Positions 11,554-27,749 of a stretch of DNA of 64,000 nt are shown here, piece by piece. Made by a program: the position numbers and the translations under genes. The notes under the pieces were generated by a model, which did not search any database, was not told where the DNA came from, and worked only from the letters and a program-made list of their open reading frames with translations. Source of the DNA: Bacteroidota bacterium (GTDB taxonomy: Bacteria > Bacteroidota > Ignavibacteria > Kapaibacteriales > UBA2268); the NCBI GenBank assembly GCA_004322215.1, contig SCSM01000023.1, forward strand, positions 124,001-188,000, in the 5' to 3' direction. The first letter of the stretch is position 1. Each line of letters opens with the position of its first letter.

Positions 11554-13992
11554 ATGAGATTAATACTTACCATATTTAAAAATATATTTTTAATAATACT
11601 TTTTTATTCGTCGGTATTTTCAGTTGATTGGGATACGAAAGGAAATGATTTTTGGCTTACTTTTCTTCCGAACTATCACATGAATAAGAACAATAGTGAT
11701 GACCGGCTCAAGCTGGGGGATTCACTATTTATATTTATAAGTTCTGATGAACCGGCTACAGGTACAATCGAATATGTTGATTTATCCGGGAAGCAATACA
11801 AACAAAATTTTTCTATAACCGAACCTGCAAAATTCTATATTTTTAAATTGATGTATCTTGATTATGAATTACTTGGATATAATGATAGTGGGATTCTCAG
11901 TTTCAGGAATAATAGCGAAACTGTAAAAAAACAATATTTTCATATTCAATCTGATAAGGAAGTAACTGTATATGCTCATAATCAGGCATTTAAAACAAGC
12001 GATGCTTGTCTTGTCTTACCGACAGACATTCTCGGGAAAAATTATTTTGTGATGACTTACAAAAGTGACGGAAATTATGATATTGTTTCCGGGAATCTGA
12101 GAGGAAACTCGACACCTTCTCAATTTGTCGTCCTGGGGACTGAGGATAATACGTTGGTAATAATTAATCCCTCCTCAGCAACTCAATTTAATAGTGCAAA
12201 TTCTCAAAGAATTATTTTGAACAAAGGCGATTCTTATCTTGTTCAGGCAAGGATTGATTCTAACGAACTGAACAATGACTTGACAGGGACTGAAATTCAA
12301 GCTGATAAGCCGGTTGCCGTTTTTGCCGGACATCAAAGGGCAAACATACCCGTTCTATCATTGAATTCTCCTTCGAGAGATTGTCTATATGAGGAGATGC
12401 CCCCAACAGACTCATGGGGAAAAAATGCTCTTCTCGCACCATATCAGCAACCGGGGAATATAACGAAAAACGGTACTGATATTTTCAGGATTTTAGCCGC
12501 TTTTGATAATACAAAAATATCTCTGAATGATTTTGTTATTGGACAATTGAATAAAGGTGAATATTACGAAGGTGAACTTACTGGACCTGGTTTTGTTGAG
12601 GCATCAGCCCCCGTACTTGTAGCTCAATTTAAGAAAACATCAGATTATGGTGCAGGCACAATTTTAGGAGACCCTTTCGAGATGCTTATTCCGCCTGTCG
12701 AGCAATTTATGAAAAGTTACAGAGTTTTGAATATTCAAGCTGCTGAATACAGCAGGGATTGGTTCGGGCAGCCGATTTATCAATCCGTATATACCGAACA
12801 ATATATTACAATTGTTGCCGGTGATTCTTCGATTTCTTCAGTTGTGATGGATGGTAGTCCGGTCTCATCAGGTAATTTTTTTTCGATTTCTTCATCAGGT
12901 TACTCTTATGCCAATCTGAAAGTCGGCGATGGTGTTCATACGATACGCTGTAATGACAAAATAGGTGTGTATGTTTATGGTTACGGCCAGGCAGATTCTT
13001 ATGGTTATGTAGGTGGGATGTACCTCCGAACTTTGGATTTGCAGCCGCCATTGGTTACAGGTATTGATAGTTGCAATTCTGTAATCGGTGCGGTCTTCGA
13101 TACATTAATTACCGATTCAAAATTGCAAAAAGTAGATTCACCGGTTGGTACTCAAATCAATGTAAATGTCGATATTGAAAAATTCACTCCTTATAAGGAT
13201 TCAGTGAGATTCAAAGCATCATTGATTGATAATTTCAAGGATGGAGAATTTGAAATTGTTGCCGTCGATTCATTCGGTTTGATAACTACAAAAAAATTCA
13301 CAATTCGGGGATTCACCCTATCATTTCCTGATATATCACCGAATAATTTAAAGTTTGAATTTGATAGTACAATTATTGGGTATTGTAATTGTGATTCCAT
13401 TCATATTAAAAACACCGGTATATTACCCTTAATATTAGAAAATAATATCTTTCTAAAAAGTAATTTAATATTTTCAATTCCTGCATCGCAGTTGCCATTT
13501 ATTCTGCAGCCGGGTGATTCTAAGATGCTGAAAATCTGTTATTGCCCCGTTGAATTAACTAAAAAGAAACAATCCGATACTTTACAAATGGAATATAATT
13601 GTATCAAAATAAAAATTCCGGTATCAGGTATATCAATTCCTTATTCTGTAATTGCTAATTCAAAGATTGAAAATGATAAATCGGGTTGCAATGTCCCTGT
13701 AAAAATAAGTATCATAGAATTACCTGAAATGGATTATTTGGGACAAATTTATCCGAATCCTGTCTCAAATAAAAAAGCCGTTTTTAATTTTAGTATTGCA
13801 TATAAAAGTAATGTTATTATAAAAGTTTTTGATTTATATGGCAATGAAACAAAAACAATAATTTCGGATTTATTAGATAAAGGAGTTTATGATGTTAATT
13901 TAGATTTTACAGATTTTTATCCGGGATTTTATTTTATAACATTAAGTACCGAAAGGATATTTTTATCAAAAAGTATTATTGTTCAAAATTGA
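11554..13992 (+). CDS. IgGFc-binding-domain secreted protein with T9SS sorting domain, paralog 1 of 3
   Basis: An 812-residue exported protein, the shortest of three tandem paralogs. After a signal peptide (about 1-23) comes a domain of about 460 residues like the bacterial IgGFc-binding N-terminal domain (PF17517 type): KGNDFWLTFLPNYH, VYAHNQAFKTSDACLVLPTD, DKPVAVFAGHQR, EEMPPTDSWGKNALL, DPFEMLIPPVEQF. Then follow one copy of a DGEFEIVAVDS module, a cell-surface beta-sandwich (about 600-700), and a T9SS sorting domain (LGQIYPNPVSN ... IIVQN). Whether it binds immunoglobulin-like or mucin-like ligands is untested. It lacks the second module present in paralogs 2 and 3. Confidence 0.82.
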   Translation: MRLILTIFKNIFLIILFYSSVFSVDWDTKGNDFWLTFLPNYHMNKNNSDDRLKLGDSLFIFISSDEPATGTIEYVDLSGKQYKQNFSITEPAKFYIFKLMYLDYELLGYNDSGILSFRNNSETVKKQYFHIQSDKEVTVYAHNQAFKTSDACLVLPTDILGKNYFVMTYKSDGNYDIVSGNLRGNSTPSQFVVLGTEDNTLVIINPSSATQFNSANSQRIILNKGDSYLVQARIDSNELNNDLTGTEIQADKPVAVFAGHQRANIPVLSLNSPSRDCLYEEMPPTDSWGKNALLAPYQQPGNITKNGTDIFRILAAFDNTKISLNDFVIGQLNKGEYYEGELTGPGFVEASAPVLVAQFKKTSDYGAGTILGDPFEMLIPPVEQFMKSYRVLNIQAAEYSRDWFGQPIYQSVYTEQYITIVAGDSSISSVVMDGSPVSSGNFFSISSSGYSYANLKVGDGVHTIRCNDKIGVYVYGYGQADSYGYVGGMYLRTLDLQPPLVTGIDSCNSVIGAVFDTLITDSKLQKVDSPVGTQINVNVDIEKFTPYKDSVRFKASLIDNFKDGEFEIVAVDSFGLITTKKFTIRGFTLSFPDISPNNLKFEFDSTIIGYCNCDSIHIKNTGILPLILENNIFLKSNLIFSIPASQLPFILQPGDSKMLKICYCPVELTKKKQSDTLQMEYNCIKIKIPVSGISIPYSVIANSKIENDKSGCNVPVKISIIELPEMDYLGQIYPNPVSNKKAVFNFSIAYKSNVIIKVFDLYGNETKTIISDLLDKGVYDVNLDFTDFYPGFYFITLSTERIFLSKSIIVQN

Positions 13993-14105
13993 TATAAAAA
14001 TTATTTAAACATTACAATAAATTTAAGTTAATTTAGTTTACTGTGATGATAATTAAAACTTAAGAAAACCTTCAGAAAATTATTATTGTTAATTTGGTGG
14101 CAGTA

Positions 14106-17100
14106 ATGAGCAAAAAATATTTAGCTAATCGAATGAAAATTAAATTCATCCTGCTGATTATAACAATTGTTGCATTATATGTTCCACTCCAGGCACAGTC
14201 CGATTCCTTGATTTTTGATACAAAAGGAACTGATTTCTGGCTGGTATTTCCTCCGAATTTTCATAACGGGAAATATTCCGGCTCACAAATGTACTATGAT
14301 GATTCCCTTTATATTTTTATTACATCTGACAGACCGACTACGGGTGTAATTGAATATATGAGCTTAAAAGGAAGAACATATTCAAAGAATTTCAGCATTA
14401 CTGACCCGACAAAAATTTATACTTTTTCCATTTTTTATCCGGATTTCGAATTGCTTGGATATAATGATAGCGGATATAATCTCGATTACCAGAATAACAG
14501 CGAAGTTATAACTAAATTGTATTTTCATATCTTAGCAGATAATGAAATAACAGTATATGCCCATAACCAGGCGGTTACAACCAGCGATGCTTGTCTTGTA
14601 TTCCCGACAGATATATTAGGAAAGGACTATTTTATTATGTCTTATAATAGTGATGGAAAATCTGATTTTGGATATTTATCAACTAGTTCTACTCCCTCAC
14701 AATTTGTAATTTTAGCTACGGAAGATAATACTAATGTAATAATAAAACCCAAACAACCGACAAGATTTAATGGCTTAAAAATTCAAAATATAGTTCTAAA
14801 TACTGGTGATGCTTATTTGGTGCAGGCAGATATAACTGAAACAAGTCTCAGAACAGATTTAACAGGCAGTGAAGTTCATTCCGACAAACCTGTAGCTGTT
14901 TTTGCCGGTCATCAGCGTTCTACGGTTCCTAATTCACCACCTGCAAGTAATCCATCAAGGGATTATTTGCTGGAGCAAATGCCTCCTATCGAGACTTGGG
15001 GACAAAATGCTCTGCTAATTCCCTATCAGCAGCCATCTAATGCCACTACACTGAGAAATGATATTTACAGAATACTGGCTGCAAACAATAATACTGAAAT
15101 ATTTATCAATGATGTATCTGTTGGCAAATTGAATAAGGATGAATTTTATGAAGGGCAATTGACAAGTCCTGCTCATGTAAGGTCAAATGCTCCAATTCTT
15201 GTAGCCCAATTCAAAAAGACTTCTGATTTCACATCATCGGGAGGTAATAATAATTATGGTGACCCTTTTGAGATGCTTATCCCCCCCGTAGAGCAGTTCA
15301 TGACTAATTACAGGGTAATTAACACCCAGGCACACGAAGGAATTTTTTCTGAAGCAGTCTATGTAGAACAATTTATCATCATAGTAGCTACGGATTCATC
15401 AATGGCTTCGGTTTTACTTGACGGTAATCCCATTCAACTTAGCTTTTTCAAGCCAATTCCAACTACAAAATATTTTTATGCTAATGTCAGGGTTTCAGAT
15501 GGAGTACATTCAATAAGCTGCAACGATAAAATCGGAGTATATGTTTATGGCTATGGTCCTGCAAATTCCTATGGCTATGTAGGTGGAATGAGCATGAAAC
15601 CATATGATTATTCACCACCTCAGATTGTTTTTGCAGATAGCTGCTATTCCCTCAGGGGAACAATTAGCGATACACTTGTTTCTGACTCAAAAATTAACAC
15701 AATCATTTCTGCTCCCGAATCACAGGTTAATGTAAATGTTATAATCGAACAGTTTAATCCTTATGCAAGACAGGTTAAATTCAGTGCAAAACTTAATAAT
15801 TTCTATGAAGACGGTGAATTTGAAATTATTGCTACTGACTCGATGGGATTATCTTCCACGAAGAAGTTTGAAATTCCCGGATTTACTTTATCAGTACAAA
15901 ATTTCAGAAACGGTACTAAACTTCCAGACCATAGTAAGATTTATAGAATCGGAAAAGAATTTTGTTATCCCGTGGTTATTGAAAATTATGGTAAACACAA
16001 TCAGAATATCAATGATTTGATTTTGAAAAATAATACCTCAAATTTCAGAATAGTATATAATACACCTAAAACTTTGAACCCCGGTCAAATTGATACTGCT
16101 TTTGTTTGCTTCAATTCACCGGTTGATACTAACATTATTGATACTTTATCAATCGTAGGGGATTGCGGTATAAGGAAAATTCAGTCATTCAATCTGACTT
16201 TCAGAGGCGATACGAATAAACCTGCAGTAAAAGCTATCGTTGACCCTTGCAATAAAACAACCAATCTGGTATTTACCGATTCCACAATTATTGATTTCGG
16301 TATGGCTTCAGTTGACATAATTGATACCGTTAATTGTTTGGTTACCATTGAAAAGTTTTTACCCAAATACGAAACAGTAAAAATTGAGGTCTTAGACCGG
16401 TATAAAGATGCAATTTATCATCTCTCTGCAACAGATTCGGCCGGTTTTGTTACAGATGTAATTGATACGATTCAGGGTTTCACTATTGCGTTTCCAGAGA
16501 TAAATGCCGGCACAAATTTATTTGATTATGACAGCACAATGATTGGAATAATCAATTGTAAAATGCTGAAAGTCAGCAATACTGGTTTGCTTCCTATCAC
16601 ATTTGACAAAAATATGTATTTGACAGGTAATATTATTTTTTCGCTGCCTTCGATTCAATTGCCTTTTACTATTAATCCCGGGGATATACAACTTTTGAAT
16701 ATTTGTTTCAGTCCCGTTCATTCGGCTCCTGAAATTCAATTCGATACACTTGTTCTCGAATTCAATTGTCTGGCGATAAAAATAAATATTCTTGGATTGG
16801 CTGAACCATTTATTACTGATTCTAAATCGAAATGCAATATTCCTGTCGTTTTCACGATGGACGATTTAACTTCAGAATCTTACCTGGGGCAAAGCTTTCC
16901 CAATCCCGCTTCGGATTACTCTTCCTTCATGTTTGGTTTGGCAGAAAATAATTACATTTCATTAAAAATTTATGATATTTATGGAGCTTTTAGACAAACA
17001 ATCTTCAGTGGGACATTAAACCGCGGAAATTACAAAATTCAAATAAATACTGTGGAATTGGAGCAAGGTGTATATTTTTATACTTTAACAACAGAGAATA

Positions 17101-17135
17101 ATAATTTTACAAAAACAATGGTAATCAGAAAATAA
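14106..17135 (+). CDS. IgGFc-binding-domain secreted protein with T9SS sorting domain, paralog 2 of 3
   Basis: About 1009 residues with the same layout as its upstream neighbour: signal peptide ending LQAQ; IgGFc-binding-type domain (KGTDFWLVFPPNFH, DKPVAVFAGHQRS, LEQMPPIETWGQNALL); then two copies of the DGEFEIIATDSMG/DAIYHLSATDSAG module, separated by an ENYGKHNQNINDLIL segment; a DYDSTMIGIINC beta-sandwich; and a T9SS sorting domain (LGQSFPNPASD ... MVIRK). An in-frame TTG at 14094 exists, but the ATG at 14106 is chosen; the ATG at 14133 would also leave a full signal peptide. It starts about 110 bp after paralog 1. Confidence 0.82.
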   Translation: MSKKYLANRMKIKFILLIITIVALYVPLQAQSDSLIFDTKGTDFWLVFPPNFHNGKYSGSQMYYDDSLYIFITSDRPTTGVIEYMSLKGRTYSKNFSITDPTKIYTFSIFYPDFELLGYNDSGYNLDYQNNSEVITKLYFHILADNEITVYAHNQAVTTSDACLVFPTDILGKDYFIMSYNSDGKSDFGYLSTSSTPSQFVILATEDNTNVIIKPKQPTRFNGLKIQNIVLNTGDAYLVQADITETSLRTDLTGSEVHSDKPVAVFAGHQRSTVPNSPPASNPSRDYLLEQMPPIETWGQNALLIPYQQPSNATTLRNDIYRILAANNNTEIFINDVSVGKLNKDEFYEGQLTSPAHVRSNAPILVAQFKKTSDFTSSGGNNNYGDPFEMLIPPVEQFMTNYRVINTQAHEGIFSEAVYVEQFIIIVATDSSMASVLLDGNPIQLSFFKPIPTTKYFYANVRVSDGVHSISCNDKIGVYVYGYGPANSYGYVGGMSMKPYDYSPPQIVFADSCYSLRGTISDTLVSDSKINTIISAPESQVNVNVIIEQFNPYARQVKFSAKLNNFYEDGEFEIIATDSMGLSSTKKFEIPGFTLSVQNFRNGTKLPDHSKIYRIGKEFCYPVVIENYGKHNQNINDLILKNNTSNFRIVYNTPKTLNPGQIDTAFVCFNSPVDTNIIDTLSIVGDCGIRKIQSFNLTFRGDTNKPAVKAIVDPCNKTTNLVFTDSTIIDFGMASVDIIDTVNCLVTIEKFLPKYETVKIEVLDRYKDAIYHLSATDSAGFVTDVIDTIQGFTIAFPEINAGTNLFDYDSTMIGIINCKMLKVSNTGLLPITFDKNMYLTGNIIFSLPSIQLPFTINPGDIQLLNICFSPVHSAPEIQFDTLVLEFNCLAIKINILGLAEPFITDSKSKCNIPVVFTMDDLTSESYLGQSFPNPASDYSSFMFGLAENNYISLKIYDIYGAFRQTIFSGTLNRGNYKIQINTVELEQGVYFYTLTTENNNFTKTMVIRK

Positions 17136-17138
17136 TAG

Positions 17139-17170
17139 AAGGATTTATAAGTCATAATGATAAAATCCTT
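17139..17170 (+). terminator. weak hairpin after paralog 2
   Basis: AAGGATTT at 17139-17146 can pair with AAATCCTT at 17163-17170, just after the paralog 2 stop. There is no proper T-tract, so it may be a weak terminator or an mRNA 3'-end stabiliser. Confidence 0.3.
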
Positions 17171-17272
17171 TATTTAATAAAAGGTGTGTTCGGGCTGAGT
17201 TTTTTTATTAGTTAAATAATACTGATAGAATATATCAAAAATTAATTATTTGTTGATTATTATTGGCTTAGA

Positions 17273-20200
17273 ATGTTCACAGAAATTTTCTGGAATCGCT
17301 TGCAGTTAAATATAACTGTATTTATAGTAGTCATGATTACTTCGTATATTTCACTGCATTCCCAGATTGATACACTTCATTTCGATACTAAAGGAACTGA
17401 TTTCTGGCTGACATTCCCTCCTAATTATCATATTGGAAAATCAAATTTGCGAAATAAATATGATGATTCATTATACATTTTTATTACTTCCGACAAACCA
17501 ACAAGCGGAAAGATAGAATATATTGGGGCAAGAGGAGTTCCATTTACAACTTTATTCAGCATACCAGACCCTACAAGAATTTTTACTTTCTCAATATTTT
17601 ATGAAGATTTTGAACTGCTCGGTTTCAACAACAGCGGTTCATTGGGAAATCGTAATAATAGCGAAATAGTTACAAGAGAATACTTTCATATTACTTCCGA
17701 TTATGAAGTTACCGCCTATGCTCATAACCAGGCAAACATGACAAGCGATGCCTGTTTAATTTTGCCCACTGATATATTGGGTAATAACTATTTTATCATG
17801 TCTTATAATAGTGATGGAAACATTAATTCCTATTCTGGAAGTTTGAGTTCTTCTTCGACACCCTCTCAGTTTGTTATTTTAGCAACTGAAGATAATACCA
17901 ACGTTACAATTATCCCGAAACAAGAGACGCAGTATAATAATAGAAATACTCAAAATATTTTATTGAACAAGGGCGAAGCTTATCTCGTTCAGGCAAAAAT
18001 AACTATTTCAAGTTTAAAAACCGATTTGACAGGTAGTGAGGTTCACAGCGATAAACCTGTTGCTGTATTTGCCGGACACCAGCGTTCTACCTTGCCAAAT
18101 AATTTTACAACTACATATCCGACGAGGGATTATTTATTAGAACAAATGCCCGCGATAGAAACCTGGGGACAAAATGCTTTGATTATTCCTTATCAACAGC
18201 CGTATAATATTACTTCCGATGGAAGTGATAAATTCAGGATTCTTTCAGCCAATGATAATACCAAATTGTATATTAATGATGTTTTCAAAGCAAACATAGA
18301 CAAAGGAGAATTTTATGAAGATGATATAACTGGTCCTGCACATGTCAAAGCAAGCGCTCCTGTACTTGTAGCACAATTCAAGCAATCTTCTGACCTTACA
18401 AGAAATATTTCTAACAATAACGGCGACCCGTTTGAAATGCTGATTCCGCCTGTTGAACAATTTATGAATAATTACAGGGTCATCAATACACAGGCAAATC
18501 AATATAGTAATGCAGAAAAAGTATATGAGGAACAATATATTACTATTGTTGCTCCTAATGTTTCATTAGCTTCCGTTCGCCTCGATGGTAATCCTATTCC
18601 CACGAGTAATTTCCTCCCGGTTCCTACATCTAATTATTTTTATACTAATGAACGTGTCAGCGATGGTGTTCATACTATCAGTTGCAATGAAAAAATCGGA
18701 GTTTATGTTTATGGCTATGGCGATGCAAATTCTTATGGTTATGTCGGTGGTATGAGCATGGAAAGGATGGACGTTTCACCTCCTCAGTTTGCAACAATTG
18801 ATTCATGTTTTTCAATGAGAGGTGTTATCACTGATACTATGGAAAATGATTCAAAAATTTATTCGGTTATTTCTCCACCTGAATCTCAGGTAAATGTTAC
18901 AGTGAAAATAACATCATTCAATCCTTATGCAAGCTTAATTGATTTCTCGGCTCGGCTTAATAATTTTTATGATGATGGTGAGTTTGAGATTATTGCAACA
19001 GATTCGATGGGCCTATACTCTACTAAAAAATTTGAAATTCCCGGTTTCACTTTATCTGTTATGAATTTCAGGAATGGAACTATTCTGCCTGAACTTAAAG
19101 ATTCATACAGAATCGGTAAACAATTTTGTTATCCGGTTGTTATTGAAAACTATGGTAAACACCGGCAAAATATTAATGATTTGATTTTAAAGAATAATAA
19201 TTTCTCAATTATATATAATACGCCTAAAATAATAAATCCCGGTGAAACTGATACAGTAATGATATGTTTCAGTTCTCCTGTTGATACTGTTTTAATTGAT
19301 ACATTATCAATTGTAGGTGATTGCGGCATAAGAAAAATTCAGGCATTTAACCTGTCATTGTGGGGGGATTCAAATAAACCGGCTGTTAAAATGAATACTG
19401 ACCCTTGCAACAAAGTTATCAATATTACAGTTTCAGATTCGACCGGTGGTGATTTCGGATTGGCATCGGTAGATATCATTGACACAGTCAATTGTTTGGT
19501 AACTATTGATAATTACCTGCCACAATATGAAAATTTTCGAATCGAAGTGATTGACCAATGCAAGGATGCAATCTATCATCTGGTTGCAACCGATTCTGCC
19601 GGTTTCGTTTCCGACATAATTGATACTATCCAGGGTTTTACTATTGCATTTCCTGATATTAATCCCGCTGCAAAAACCTTTGAATTTGATTGTACTAAAG
19701 TTGGTATCGTAAATTGTCAGAAACTAAGAATCAGTAATACCGGACTGCTCCCGTTTACATTTGACAGGAATATGTTTATTAGCCATAATATTATTTTTTC
19801 CATTCCGCAATCCAATATTCCGTTAACTCTTAATCCTGGTTCTTCGGAATTTATTGATATATGTTTCGCTCCTTACTATAGCTATTCCGATGTGCAACGT
19901 GATACATTTGTTCTCGAATTTAATTGCATTTCGAAAGAAATTTATTTATCCGGGATTGCTGTTCCCGAAATTACTGCATCAAAATCCAATTGTAATATTC
20001 CTGTAATATTTACATTGAATGAAATTCCTTTGTTTACATTCCTTGGTCAAAACTACCCGAATCCGACTGAAGACAATGTCTCGGTTAAATTCGGTGTGGA
20101 GGACGAAGGATTAACAAGCATTCGTTTATTTGATTTATTTGGAAATTACAGGCAAACAGTATTTGAAAACAATCTGAAGCCGGGTATTTATGAATTAAAA

Positions 20201-20293
20201 TTTTCGACAGAAAATCTCGAACAGGGAGCTTATATTTATATTTTATCATCAGGTGGAAAATTAATATCAAAAGCAATGATTGTTAAGAAATAA
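17273..20293 (+). CDS. IgGFc-binding-domain secreted protein with T9SS sorting domain, paralog 3 of 3
   Basis: A 1006-residue exported protein that follows paralog 2 along its whole length, including the two-module central part (YDDGEFEIIATDSMG and KDAIYHLVATDSAG) and the T9SS ending (LGQNYPNPTED ... AMIVKK). The IgGFc-type domain is intact (KGTDFWLTFPPNYH, VTAYAHNQANMTSDACL, DKPVAVFAGHQRS). Paralogs 2 and 3 resemble each other more than either resembles paralog 1, which suggests a recent duplication. Secretion across the outer membrane and attachment or release at the cell surface follow from the sorting domain; the binding partner is unknown. Confidence 0.82.
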   Translation: MFTEIFWNRLQLNITVFIVVMITSYISLHSQIDTLHFDTKGTDFWLTFPPNYHIGKSNLRNKYDDSLYIFITSDKPTSGKIEYIGARGVPFTTLFSIPDPTRIFTFSIFYEDFELLGFNNSGSLGNRNNSEIVTREYFHITSDYEVTAYAHNQANMTSDACLILPTDILGNNYFIMSYNSDGNINSYSGSLSSSSTPSQFVILATEDNTNVTIIPKQETQYNNRNTQNILLNKGEAYLVQAKITISSLKTDLTGSEVHSDKPVAVFAGHQRSTLPNNFTTTYPTRDYLLEQMPAIETWGQNALIIPYQQPYNITSDGSDKFRILSANDNTKLYINDVFKANIDKGEFYEDDITGPAHVKASAPVLVAQFKQSSDLTRNISNNNGDPFEMLIPPVEQFMNNYRVINTQANQYSNAEKVYEEQYITIVAPNVSLASVRLDGNPIPTSNFLPVPTSNYFYTNERVSDGVHTISCNEKIGVYVYGYGDANSYGYVGGMSMERMDVSPPQFATIDSCFSMRGVITDTMENDSKIYSVISPPESQVNVTVKITSFNPYASLIDFSARLNNFYDDGEFEIIATDSMGLYSTKKFEIPGFTLSVMNFRNGTILPELKDSYRIGKQFCYPVVIENYGKHRQNINDLILKNNNFSIIYNTPKIINPGETDTVMICFSSPVDTVLIDTLSIVGDCGIRKIQAFNLSLWGDSNKPAVKMNTDPCNKVINITVSDSTGGDFGLASVDIIDTVNCLVTIDNYLPQYENFRIEVIDQCKDAIYHLVATDSAGFVSDIIDTIQGFTIAFPDINPAAKTFEFDCTKVGIVNCQKLRISNTGLLPFTFDRNMFISHNIIFSIPQSNIPLTLNPGSSEFIDICFAPYYSYSDVQRDTFVLEFNCISKEIYLSGIAVPEITASKSNCNIPVIFTLNEIPLFTFLGQNYPNPTEDNVSVKFGVEDEGLTSIRLFDLFGNYRQTVFENNLKPGIYELKFSTENLEQGAYIYILSSGGKLISKAMIVKK

Positions 20294-24064: not shown

Positions 24065-25087
24065 ATGATACTGATTAACTACCTAAAATCTACCATCCTC
24101 TGTAAATTTGTGATGGCAGTAACGGGAGTTATTCTGGTTCTATTTGTCATTGGCCACTGTGTTGGTAATATGCAGGTTTTCCTGGGTAAAGACGCGTTCA
24201 ACAGTTATGCATATTTTCTCCAGGAACGTATTGGTGAACTTCTGTTTATTATAAGATTGGGCCTTGTTTTGGCACTCGTTTTTCACATTGTTACTTCTGT
24301 CCGGCTTAAATTCCTGAACCTGGATGCTAAGCCGACAAAATATCAGGTAAAAAATTATGTCAAGGCACGCCTGACCTCGAGAACGATGATTTGGACCGGA
24401 ATAATGATTTTTGCTTTTGTAACTTATCATATTTTGCATTTTACTATGGGGGTTGTTCATCCCGAAGATTACAACAAATCTGAATTTTACGTGTCGAATG
24501 CAGTCTCTGTTGAAAAGGTCGGTAATCTCACCCAAGAGGAAATTGAAGCATCAGATGAATGCTTAAAAAAAGATTTAGTAATAATACCAAAAATCGGCAA
24601 AGAAGAATGCTGTTCAAAAGAATCCGGAACAACTACTCAAATGGGCAAAGATGAATGCTGTGTCAATGAAACAAAAAATACTGCAAAAGTTAACAATGCC
24701 ACCCTCAACAAAGTCGAAGGGTCTGATGAATGTTGTACAAAAGACTCTGTTACATCTTTTAAAGAAAATTTTGTAAAATACAATGGCAGATTGTACAAAG
24801 TAGAAGGCGATGAACCGATTTTATCCGAAAGGCACGATGCCTATGCTATGGTAATTAGCGGCTTCAAAAAGCCACTCGTTTCAATTCTCTATATTTTGGG
24901 GGTGATTCTACTTGGATTTCATTTAAATCATGCAATCCAAAGTTCATTCCAGACTTTAGGTTATAATAATCCTAAATATTTCCCTAAGATAGTAGCCGGG
25001 AGCACTATTTTATCAATAATTCTTGTTTTATGTTACATTTCAATACCGATTTCGATTCTTTTGGGATTGGTGGGAGGAGGAGTATGA
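24065..25087 (+). CDS. sdhC: succinate dehydrogenase cytochrome b subunit with a cysteine-rich insert
   Basis: A 340-residue Bacteroidota-type SdhC with five membrane helices (about 17-40, 56-80, 109-131, 268-292 and 309-335). Candidate haem-ligand histidines lie in the helices at H31, H74, H122 and H286/H289. Relatives are roughly 220-230 residues; the extra length lies between helices 3 and 4 (about 135-250) and contains four repeats centred on EC or ECC: C166, C182-C183, C198-C199 and C223-C224. The strongly basic loop 2-3 (about 80-107) should be cytoplasmic, which puts the insert in the periplasm. The reading frame is continuous through the insert and back into the conserved [11 protein letters not shown] helix, so it is not a frameshift. 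It overlaps sdhA by 4 bp. Confidence 0.9.
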
Positions 25088-26997
25088 CATTAGATTCTAA
25101 AATTCCATCAGGACCATTGAAAGACAAATGGGAAAAGTACAAATTCGAAATGAAGCTTGTCAATGCAGCAAATAAAAGAAAATACAAAGCTATCGTTGTC
25201 GGTACGGGATTAGCAGGTGCGTCTGCAGCTGCATCTCTCGCAGAGCTCGGTTATGTCGTCGAAGCTTTTACATATAACGACAGTCCCCGCAGGGCTCATA
25301 GTATTGCTGCTCAGGGCGGTATTAATGCCGCTAAGAACTATCCTAATGATGGTGACAGCATTTGGAGACTGTTCTATGATACGATTAAAGGTGGAGACTT
25401 CAGGGCGAGAGAGGCAAATGTTTACCGCTTAGCTCAGGTGAGTAACAATATTATTGACCAGTGTGTGGCTCAGGGTGTTCCATTCGCGAGAGAATACGGT
25501 GGCTTGCTCGATAACCGTTCTTTTGGTGGGGCACAGGTTTCCCGGACATTTTACGCAAGAGGACAAACGGGACAGCAATTGTTATTGGGGGCTTATTCTG
25601 CTTTGAGCCGTGCAATCGGCAAAAAACAGGTTACTATGCACGTCCGAAAAGAAATGCTCGACCTTGCTATTATCGATGGAAAAGCAAGAGGTATTGTAAC
25701 AAGAGACCTTGTGAATGGCAAAATTGAATCATTTTGGGCTGATGCTGTCATTCTTGCTACCGGGGGCTATGGAAATGTATTCTTCCTTTCCACAAATGCA
25801 CAGGCATGTAATGTTACAGCTTCCTACAGGGCTTATAAGAAGGGTGCTTTGTTTGCAAATCCATGCTTTACTCAGATCCATCCCACCTGCATTCCTTTAA
25901 GCGGCGAACATCAATCAAAACTAACTTTGATGTCCGAATCTCTGAGAAATGACGGTAGAATTTGGGTTCCGAAAAATAAAGGCGATAAACGCAGACCAAA
26001 CGAAATTCCCGAAGAAGACAGAGATTACTATCTCGAAAGAAAATACCCGAGCTACGGGAATTTGGCTCCAAGGGATATTTCTTCCCGTTCTGCTAAAGAA
26101 GTTTGTGATGAAGGCAGGGGAGTCAGTGCCACCGGCTTTGGTGTCTATCTTGACTTTGCAGACTCCATCAAGCGTTTAGGTAAAAAAGTAATTGAGGAAA
26201 GGTATGGTAATCTGTTTGAAATGTATGAAAGAATTGTTGGAGAAGACCCATATACGACACCGATGATGATTTATCCTGCTTCGCACTATGCAATGGGTGG
26301 CTTGTGGGTAGATTATAATCTGATGAGTACTATTCCGGGACTTCATGTGCTTGGCGAAGCTAACTTTTCCGACCATGGTGCAAACCGTCTCGGGGCAAGT
26401 GCTTTAATGCAGGGTCTTGCAGATGGATACTTTGTCATACCATACACAATCGGTGATTATTTTGCTAAAAATAAATTCGATAAAGTAACAACTGACCATC
26501 CTGAGTTTAAAAAGGTCGAGGCAGAAGTTGTCGAAAAAACCAACAAACTTCTTTCGATAAAAGGTAAAAAGACTCCGACAATGTTCCATCGCGAACTTGG
26601 TAAAGTTATGTGGGAATATTGCGGTATGGGAAGGAATGAAGCCGGTTTGAAAAAAGCTTTGGAACTTGTTCCAAAAATCCGTGAGGAGTTCTGGCAGAAT
26701 CTTACCATAACAGGTGAAGGTAACGATTTGAATATTTCACTTGAAAAAGCAGGAAGAGTAGCAGATTTCCTTGAATTCGCAGAAGTGCTTTTGTGGGATG
26801 CTCTCGAAAGGGATGAATCCTGCGGTGCTCATTTCAGAGAGGAGCATCAATATCCTGACGGAGAAGCAAAACGAGATGACGAACACTTTGCACACGTGGC
26901 TGCATGGGAATATACTGGTGTCGGTAAGAAACCCAATAGACACACAGAACCACTTGTTTTCGAGAATGTACAATTAGCGGTGAGGAGCTACAAATGA
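25084..26997 (+). CDS. sdhA: succinate dehydrogenase/fumarate reductase flavoprotein subunit
   Basis: A 637-residue flavoprotein. The start is set at ATG 25084 because it overlaps the sdhC stop in an ATGA and has the purine-rich GGGAGGAGG just upstream. The Rossmann motif [17 protein letters not shown] (about 37-53), the covalent-FAD histidine in [11 protein letters not shown], and the active-site HPTCIP and [13 protein letters not shown] segments are present. It oxidises succinate (or reduces fumarate) and passes electrons to SdhB and then to menaquinone through SdhC. Length and order match the Bacteroidota C-A-B operon. Confidence 0.96.
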
Positions 26998-27749
26998 GAT
27001 TAACACTTTATATATGGAGACAAAATAATGCCTACGATAAAGGGCGAATGGAAAAGCACCAGGTCAATGATGTTCTCGAAGATATGTCTTTTCTCGAAAT
27101 GCTGGATGTTCTTAATGAGAAATTAATACTCGAAGGTAAAGAACCGGTTGCGTTCGACCATGATTGCCGCGAGGGTATTTGCGGTGCTTGTTCACTTACA
27201 ATTAACGGAATACCGCACGGACACGAGAAAGCAACTACGACCTGTCAATTGCACATGAGGAAATTCAAGGATGGCGATTCGATTTATATCGAACCATTCA
27301 GAGCAAAGGCATTCCCGGTCATTAAAGACCTTATTGTTGACAGGACTGCATTCGATAGAATTATGCAGGCAGGAGGATTTATTAGCATTAATACAGGCAA
27401 TGCACCTGAAGCTAATGGGCTTCCTGTTTCAAAAAAGAACGCAGATTTATCGATGGATGCCGCTGCTTGTATCGGTTGCGGTGCTTGTGTTGCAGCTTGT
27501 CCAAATGGTGCTGCAATGCTTTTTGTTTCGGCTAAAGTTAGCCAGTTTGCATTGCTGCCACAGGGACAGCCGGAAAGAAAAAAACGTGTTCTTGCTATGG
27601 TAAATCAAATGGAGAAAGAAGGATTCGGTGCCTGCACTAACTTCTATGAATGTGAAGCTGCTTGTCCGAAACAGATTTCTGTAAGGTTTATTGCTATGAT
27701 GAACAGGGACTACCTTTGTTCGAGAGTTACTGAACCGGTTGAAGTATAA
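26994..27749 (+). CDS. sdhB: succinate dehydrogenase/fumarate reductase iron-sulfur subunit
   Basis: A 251-residue protein with three iron-sulfur sites: the [2Fe-2S] ligands in CREGICGAC plus the later TTCQ, the [4Fe-4S] set in [12 protein letters not shown], and the [3Fe-4S] cysteines in the C-terminal CEAACP region with the C of the earlier motif. It relays electrons from the flavin of SdhA to the quinone site in SdhC. It overlaps sdhA by 4 bp, completing a tightly coupled three-gene operon that ends in a terminator hairpin. Confidence 0.95.

Follow-up and report, generated by a model that had tools for sequence, protein, structure and literature searches.

Few respiratory enzymes are as conserved as complex II, whose membrane anchor is usually regarded as a few helices joined by short loops. 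In the 64,000-nucleotide stretch of contig SCSM01000023.1 analysed here (herein referred to as the window), which comes from an uncultured bacterium, an sdhC gene encodes an anchor whose helices 3 and 4 are separated by a long segment with repeated cysteine pairs, each behind acidic residues. The locus raises the question of what a thiol-rich loop might do on an otherwise standard respiratory subunit, and whether its cysteines are maintained or have drifted into place.

The sdhC gene and its loop between helices 3 and 4

The sdhC frame is open from the ATG at 24065 to the stop at 25087, and its product matches the b558 family model TIGR02046 at E 4.4e-56 (189.9 bits, against a curated cut-off of 96) and scores above the Pfam cut-off for PF01127, in agreement with the first-pass annotation, which had called the family standard. 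Members of the b558 family have five helices, four haem-ligand histidines and the gene order sdhCAB, as does this SdhC (sdhA follows at 25084 and sdhB at 26994); the window SdhA is approximately 95% identical to that of congeners. We assign SdhC to this family and predict its haem content and SQR activity from sequence. H31, H74, H122 and H286, found in helices 1–4, appear to make up an intact haem-ligand set. The features considered below are as follows:

24065..25087, + strand: sdhC, 340 aa, dihaem b558-type SQR membrane anchor with insert (TIGR02046, PF01127)
24155..24157, + strand: His31, helix 1, predicted periplasmic-side haem ligand (H in 104 of 104 order-level SdhC; role taken from the family)
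24284..24286, + strand: His74, helix 2, predicted cytoplasmic-side haem ligand (H in 104 of 104 order-level SdhC)
24428..24430, + strand: His122, helix 3, predicted periplasmic-side haem ligand (H in 104 of 104; role taken from the family)
24449..24829, + strand: predicted periplasmic loop between helices 3 and 4, residues 129–255, 127 aa
24554..24562, + strand: unit A, D164-E165-C166, with Leu at the second Cys position
24602..24613, + strand: unit B, E-E-C182-C183 (EECC)
24650..24661, + strand: unit C, D-E-C198-C199 (DECC)
24725..24736, + strand: unit D, D-E-C223-C224 within GSDECC, aligning with the single motif of three relatives
24920..24922, + strand: His286, helix 4, predicted cytoplasmic-side haem ligand (H in 102 of 102 rows reaching this column)
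25084..26997, + strand: sdhA, flavoprotein, 637 aa, its ATG overlapping the sdhC stop
26994..27749, + strand: sdhB, iron-sulphur subunit, 251 aa

According to the available text on the D. gigas QFR (PMC6175931), that enzyme has five transmembrane helices, the first two joined by a periplasmic helix and the second and third by a cytoplasmic helix, and its proximal haem is ligated from helices 2 and 4. The same layout would place both loop 3-4 and the C-terminus of SdhC in the periplasm, and the periplasmic location proposed earlier for the insert is supported by this analogy and by the conserved haem-ligand histidines. Among solved chains, 9lay chain C is nearest in sequence; it gives a phmmer match on either side of the loop, with 11 residues between the matched stretches as opposed to 122 in the window SdhC, too few to accommodate such an array.

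Loop 129–255 contains 7 Cys, 25 Asp/Glu and 15 Lys, and lacks any CXXC. C166, C182-C183, C198-C199 and C223-C224 each stand behind an acidic pair at the positions first reported, 16, 16 and 25 residues apart ([DE]EC cores 48, 48 and 75 nt from start to start), with acidic and lysine neighbours in contexts such as ECCSKE and DECCTKD. Among 100,000 shuffles of the 127 residues, none gave three or more [DE]ECC and two gave four or more [DE]EC, with at least three CC in 185; SdhC is also the only one of 48 largely non-overlapping window ORFs of at least 80 aa to contain a CC dipeptide (three). At the DNA level, three of the 33-nt unit copies share 64, 67 and 76% identity with the fourth, taken as reference, and pairwise comparison of the four units gives 6 to 13 differences over the 21 bases that follow the 12-base core and 1 to 3 over the 12 bases within it. 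An AlphaFold model built on a five-sequence alignment has a mean pLDDT of 50.7, with ten-residue blocks of the insert at about 23–42, which is consistent with a disordered loop; a model this poor does not establish disorder. Elsewhere in the protein, Cys32 (24158–24160) comes immediately after His31, the haem ligand of helix 1, as part of a GHC; each of the four SdhC in the clade described below has it, and so do rows L006 and L026.

Searches for the origin or identity of the insert were largely empty. Tandem Repeats Finder reported no array in it and a plasmid collection held no match. We rejected a mobile or repeat-element origin, as the insert protein query matched only itself in its own genome, besides one weak match antisense to an 866-aa ORF (E 0.012) that we dismissed as chance. 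A metallothionein or other known metal-binding domain was likewise rejected as the identity of the insert, there being no convincing domain-model match: the window loop gave a sub-threshold Pfam match only (E 1), no match in NCBIfam, and nothing better than E 0.76 in a PDB sequence search. The corresponding inserts of two SdhC from a second clade (L029 and L048, see below) had no Pfam match, and that of L029 none in the PDB search at E up to 1. The 226-aa Cys-rich insert of L029 had no second copy in seven genomes, so that a donor gene was not found, and neither the window genome nor those of L046 and L048 gave a match to it at E up to 1.

Cysteine clusters in relatives, across the order and in the phylum

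How unusual the loop is depends on the relatives chosen. In 25 class- and phylum-level SdhC (a non-random sample, as nine were chosen for long open frames), loop 3-4 spans 3–18 aa and holds no Cys; the long open frames, considered as possible loop inserts, contained none in those examined. Against these distant proteins the short loop that the first-pass annotation ascribed to relatives, and its count of about 115 extra residues, both stand. They do not hold for the three closest SdhC: in the congeners RIFOXYC2_FULL_35_21 and WY4.bin46 and in clean1621 from a neighbouring genus, the loop is already 61–70 aa long with one GSDECC, at the same loop position and in the same operon, such that the window, with four motifs in 127 aa, exceeds the congeners' 70 aa (one DECC included) by 57 residues. 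The statement that no such insert was familiar was similarly wrong in part, given the single-copy motif in these three relatives and the Cys-rich loops and tails of other lineages. The remaining genome of the same genus has no SdhC match, and its sole SdhA match is weak (28% identity).

The window SdhC, the two congeners and clean1621 form a supported clade (100/97) in which GSDECC is invariant in four of four, the codons for G, S and both C differing only synonymously; the alternative foreseen at the outset, close relatives with the insert but without conserved cysteines, is not what we found. In the aligned loop stretch every other invariant run is shorter than GSDECC. The three relatives share 62, 60 and 36% identity with the window over the rest of the aligned loop, and 90, 90 and 80% over the membrane core. 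Permutation places a six-column invariant run at p 0.013 (alignment columns 221–251) or 0.059 (columns 210–257) in an alignment that was itself anchored on the motif, and the conservation of GSDECC within this four-member clade thus appears suggestive, not overwhelming.

Within the window's family (f1), an SdhC match exists in 49 of 54 genomes; one SdhC was taken from each (one of them without its C-terminal part, at a contig end), and the motif is absent from 42 of these 49 (one of the 42 being cut short). Family loops without Cys pairs span 15–62 aa (median 41), those of other families in the order 11–21 aa, and apart from the seven Cys-rich rows the family loops contain only 6 Cys in 2393 residues. 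A second supported clade of the family (100/100) comprises L048 (9 loop Cys, four CC, with the context ACCEQKE that again sets CC beside acidic residues and Lys), L046 (5 loop Cys) and L029 (a 266-aa loop with 35 Cys); their C-terminal segments hold two or three Cys each, those of L046 and L048 ending in GGCC. The sdhC with 35 loop Cys lies at L087:8890-10365 (minus strand) in genome G032 (72% complete), with no sdhA beside it within 20 kb; a partial sdhA starts another contig (L099), and the Cys-rich SdhC of this genome may be a second copy.

Across the order, we compiled 104 SdhC rows, one for each genome that gave a match among the 123 searched, second copies being excluded. At least two Cys occur in loop 3-4 of nine rows and in the C-terminal tail of nine (15 rows in union), and in the N-terminal tail, loop 1-2, loop 2-3 or loop 4-5 of none of the 104; single Cys were found in loop 3-4 (two rows), loop 4-5 (eight), the N-terminal tail (one) and loop 2-3 (one). 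Both segments that carry clusters are predicted to face the periplasm. L065 and L163, from one genus, have two loop Cys each; the pairs are of the ACPPS..C type, and loop 3-4 is otherwise short in both. In a genus belonging to another family, six of the seven rows (L059, L060, L061, L076, L186 and L187; examples KDCPDTPDCKCE and ACDNTEACAAMKDCCK) have 3–4 Cys in the C-terminal tail, also predicted to be periplasmic, the tails of L186 and L187 containing MKDCCK, with CC beside acidic residues and Lys. In this genus sdhA directly follows the sdhC with the Cys-bearing tail. The clusters of these other lineages resemble that of the window in lying on the predicted periplasmic face and often adjoining acidic residues or Lys; they differ in reaching 35 Cys and, in some, in occupying the C-terminal tail where the window has the loop. 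Counts are odd in several cases (7, 9, 5 and 35 in loops, and 3 in four tails), and an even number, just 2 Cys, is found in five of the nine Cys-bearing loops.

In a quick tree built from 102 rows, with two truncated rows excluded, the cluster trait requires at least five changes, and each of four Cys groups can be separated from the other groups by a single branch, rows outside the groups being left out of this count. A single origin for the two Cys-loop clades of f1 is not rejected by the AU test (p 0.193, log-likelihood 17.7 lower), and gain within the family is hence not proven to be independent. In the wider phylum, a search with a Cys-rich query matched 323 of 395 genomes; among the matches listed, alignments begin at query residue 54 or later, missing the first three CC pairs, and such a search is blind to unrelated Cys loops.

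A candidate metal-binding arm and its alternatives

We tentatively hypothesize that the loop is a disordered periplasmic thiolate arm with which complex II binds a thiophilic metal at its outer face, a reading suggested by sequence patterns that we consider plausible yet short of probable. Loop 3-4 of an otherwise ordinary dihaem SdhC would have become an apparently disordered, acidic and thiol-rich arm, whose paired thiolates would stay at least partly reduced and could serve, at the outer face of the complex, as ligands of Cu(I), Zn(II), Hg(II) or As(III). The arm might then either capture toxic soft metal ions ahead of the haem/menaquinone site or hold bound metal there, and extra copies of the motif would amount to extra metal sites. 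For such cysteine pairs we infer that metal binding is more likely than disulfide formation.

Several observations count in favor of the metal-binding arm: GSDECC is identical in four SdhC whose surrounding loop is far less conserved than the membrane core; clusters are confined, among the 104 rows, to loop 3-4 and the C-terminal tail, in four groups on the tree; CC recurs beside acidic residues and Lys; and the odd counts in loops and tails argue against purely paired structural disulfides. Vicinal-cysteine metal sites are found in HgcB and in mercuric reductase (MerA), a soluble flavoprotein, unlike SdhC. A C-terminal vicinal Cys pair is given in the available text of PMC8261052 as one of the signatures essential for MerA, which also counts for the metal-binding arm; the cysteines are adjacent as in the window SdhC, to which we found no sequence relation, and the GGCC ends of L046 and L048 can be likened to this arrangement. 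Against it count the missing match to any metal-protein family in Pfam and the PDB, the lack of a second Cys in unit A, the even number in five of nine Cys loops, and an invariant run that is only modestly unusual in a motif-anchored alignment. The enzyme does not need the motif, since most family members do without it.

DsbD_TM was found in all 15 genomes searched (12 of the window's family, the window genome included), and six-frame searches for DsbB (PF02600) and VKOR (PF07884), to our knowledge the two quinone-linked thiol oxidases, matched none of the 54 family genomes, the window's included; these searches were confined to the window's family, and their controls were positive in 6 (DsbB) and 3 (VKOR) of 14 named genomes. 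Cells of the family would, at this sensitivity, have a supply of periplasmic reductant and neither oxidase, which makes a reduced thiol state plausible.

The strongest alternative, which we regard as possible but rather unlikely, is that this is a fast-drifting disordered loop that expanded and acquired its cysteines through chance events and duplication and that has little function, if any. Such drift would fit the length and variability of loop 3-4 across the family, seen also in members that have no Cys pairs, the sufficiency of one motif in congeners and of none in the bulk of the family, and a unit A that lacks one Cys. It fits less well with the scarcity of Cys in the other family loops, with the persistence of GSDECC as the longest invariant run of an otherwise divergent stretch, with clusters in four groups of the tree, and with the distribution among segments, no row having two Cys in a cytoplasmic segment although eight have one in loop 4-5.

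If the pairs were instead redox-active, with dithiol/disulfide couples trading electrons with periplasmic thiol proteins and the outer haem/menaquinone, or serving as a redox switch of the enzyme, the place of the loop would be apt: as delimited, it begins 7 residues past the helix-3 haem ligand His122, on the outer side, and in the related D. gigas enzyme menaquinone lies close to the other (low-potential) haem, according to the available text of PMC6175931. The missing DsbB and VKOR, with DsbD present wherever it was searched for, would also suit a thiol role of this kind. We nevertheless consider it improbable, because most family members lack the Cys loop as well as DsbB and VKOR, so that the loop is not a general thiol oxidant, and because the window loop has no CXXC. 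We know of no oxidase site made of vicinal Cys pairs in a flexible acidic loop.

Equally doubtful is an intermolecular disulfide staple, in which CC pairs would join SQR protomers to one another or link SQR to a different protein of the periplasm or membrane. In its favor, three of the four clade members have one CC per SdhC, and the D. gigas QFR is a homodimer whose C subunits share a 1340 A^2 contact (available text of PMC6175931); expansion to 7 or 35 cysteines, odd numbers in several loops and tails, and the lack of both oxidases in the family point the other way.

A more specific proposal, which we judge very unlikely, is that SQR doubles as a thiol oxidase, passing electrons from periplasmic dithiols by way of the CC pairs to either the outer haem or menaquinone, a DsbB-like activity that would have been gained more than once; its premise, cells devoid of DsbB and VKOR, covers the window's family only. 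DsbB and VKOR are membrane proteins that react with quinone and bear Cys pairs in the periplasm, and the likeness to SdhC is one of analogy only: SdhC itself matched neither family in Pfam, the window loop is without a CXXC, and neither family was found in any of the 54 genomes.

An assembly or frame artefact in the window genome can be set aside as scarcely credible: although the four-copy form occurs only there among the SdhC examined, the frame runs on into the conserved helix 4, as had been argued at first for an encoded insert, the 33-nt copies have diverged enough to make mis-assembly of identical repeats unlikely, and the separate assemblies of congeners show a single copy at this position.

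Significance and other cysteine-bearing ORFs

In the open literature, covered through titles and the openings of abstracts, we did not find a Cys-rich insert in a bacterial SdhC described, and as far as this search shows the metal-binding arm that we favor, or whatever its cysteine pairs prove to do, is an undescribed variant of a standard subunit. Clusters of thiols on one face of complex II in several lineages of one order would point to an unrecognised periplasmic task, such as metal capture, redox sensing or thiol exchange, and SdhC with 0, 1, 4 and many motifs provide a natural series for testing function.

The window has no counterpart, between an S41-protease-like ORF and a 301-aa minus-strand ORF, of a 915-aa ORF with 64 Cys and seven CC that a congener encodes three ORFs upstream of sdhC (L090:4555-7302, minus strand). 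Positions 11554–20293 of the window hold three similar large tandem ORFs with hydrophobic N-termini and 10, 12 and 14 Cys, all even numbers.
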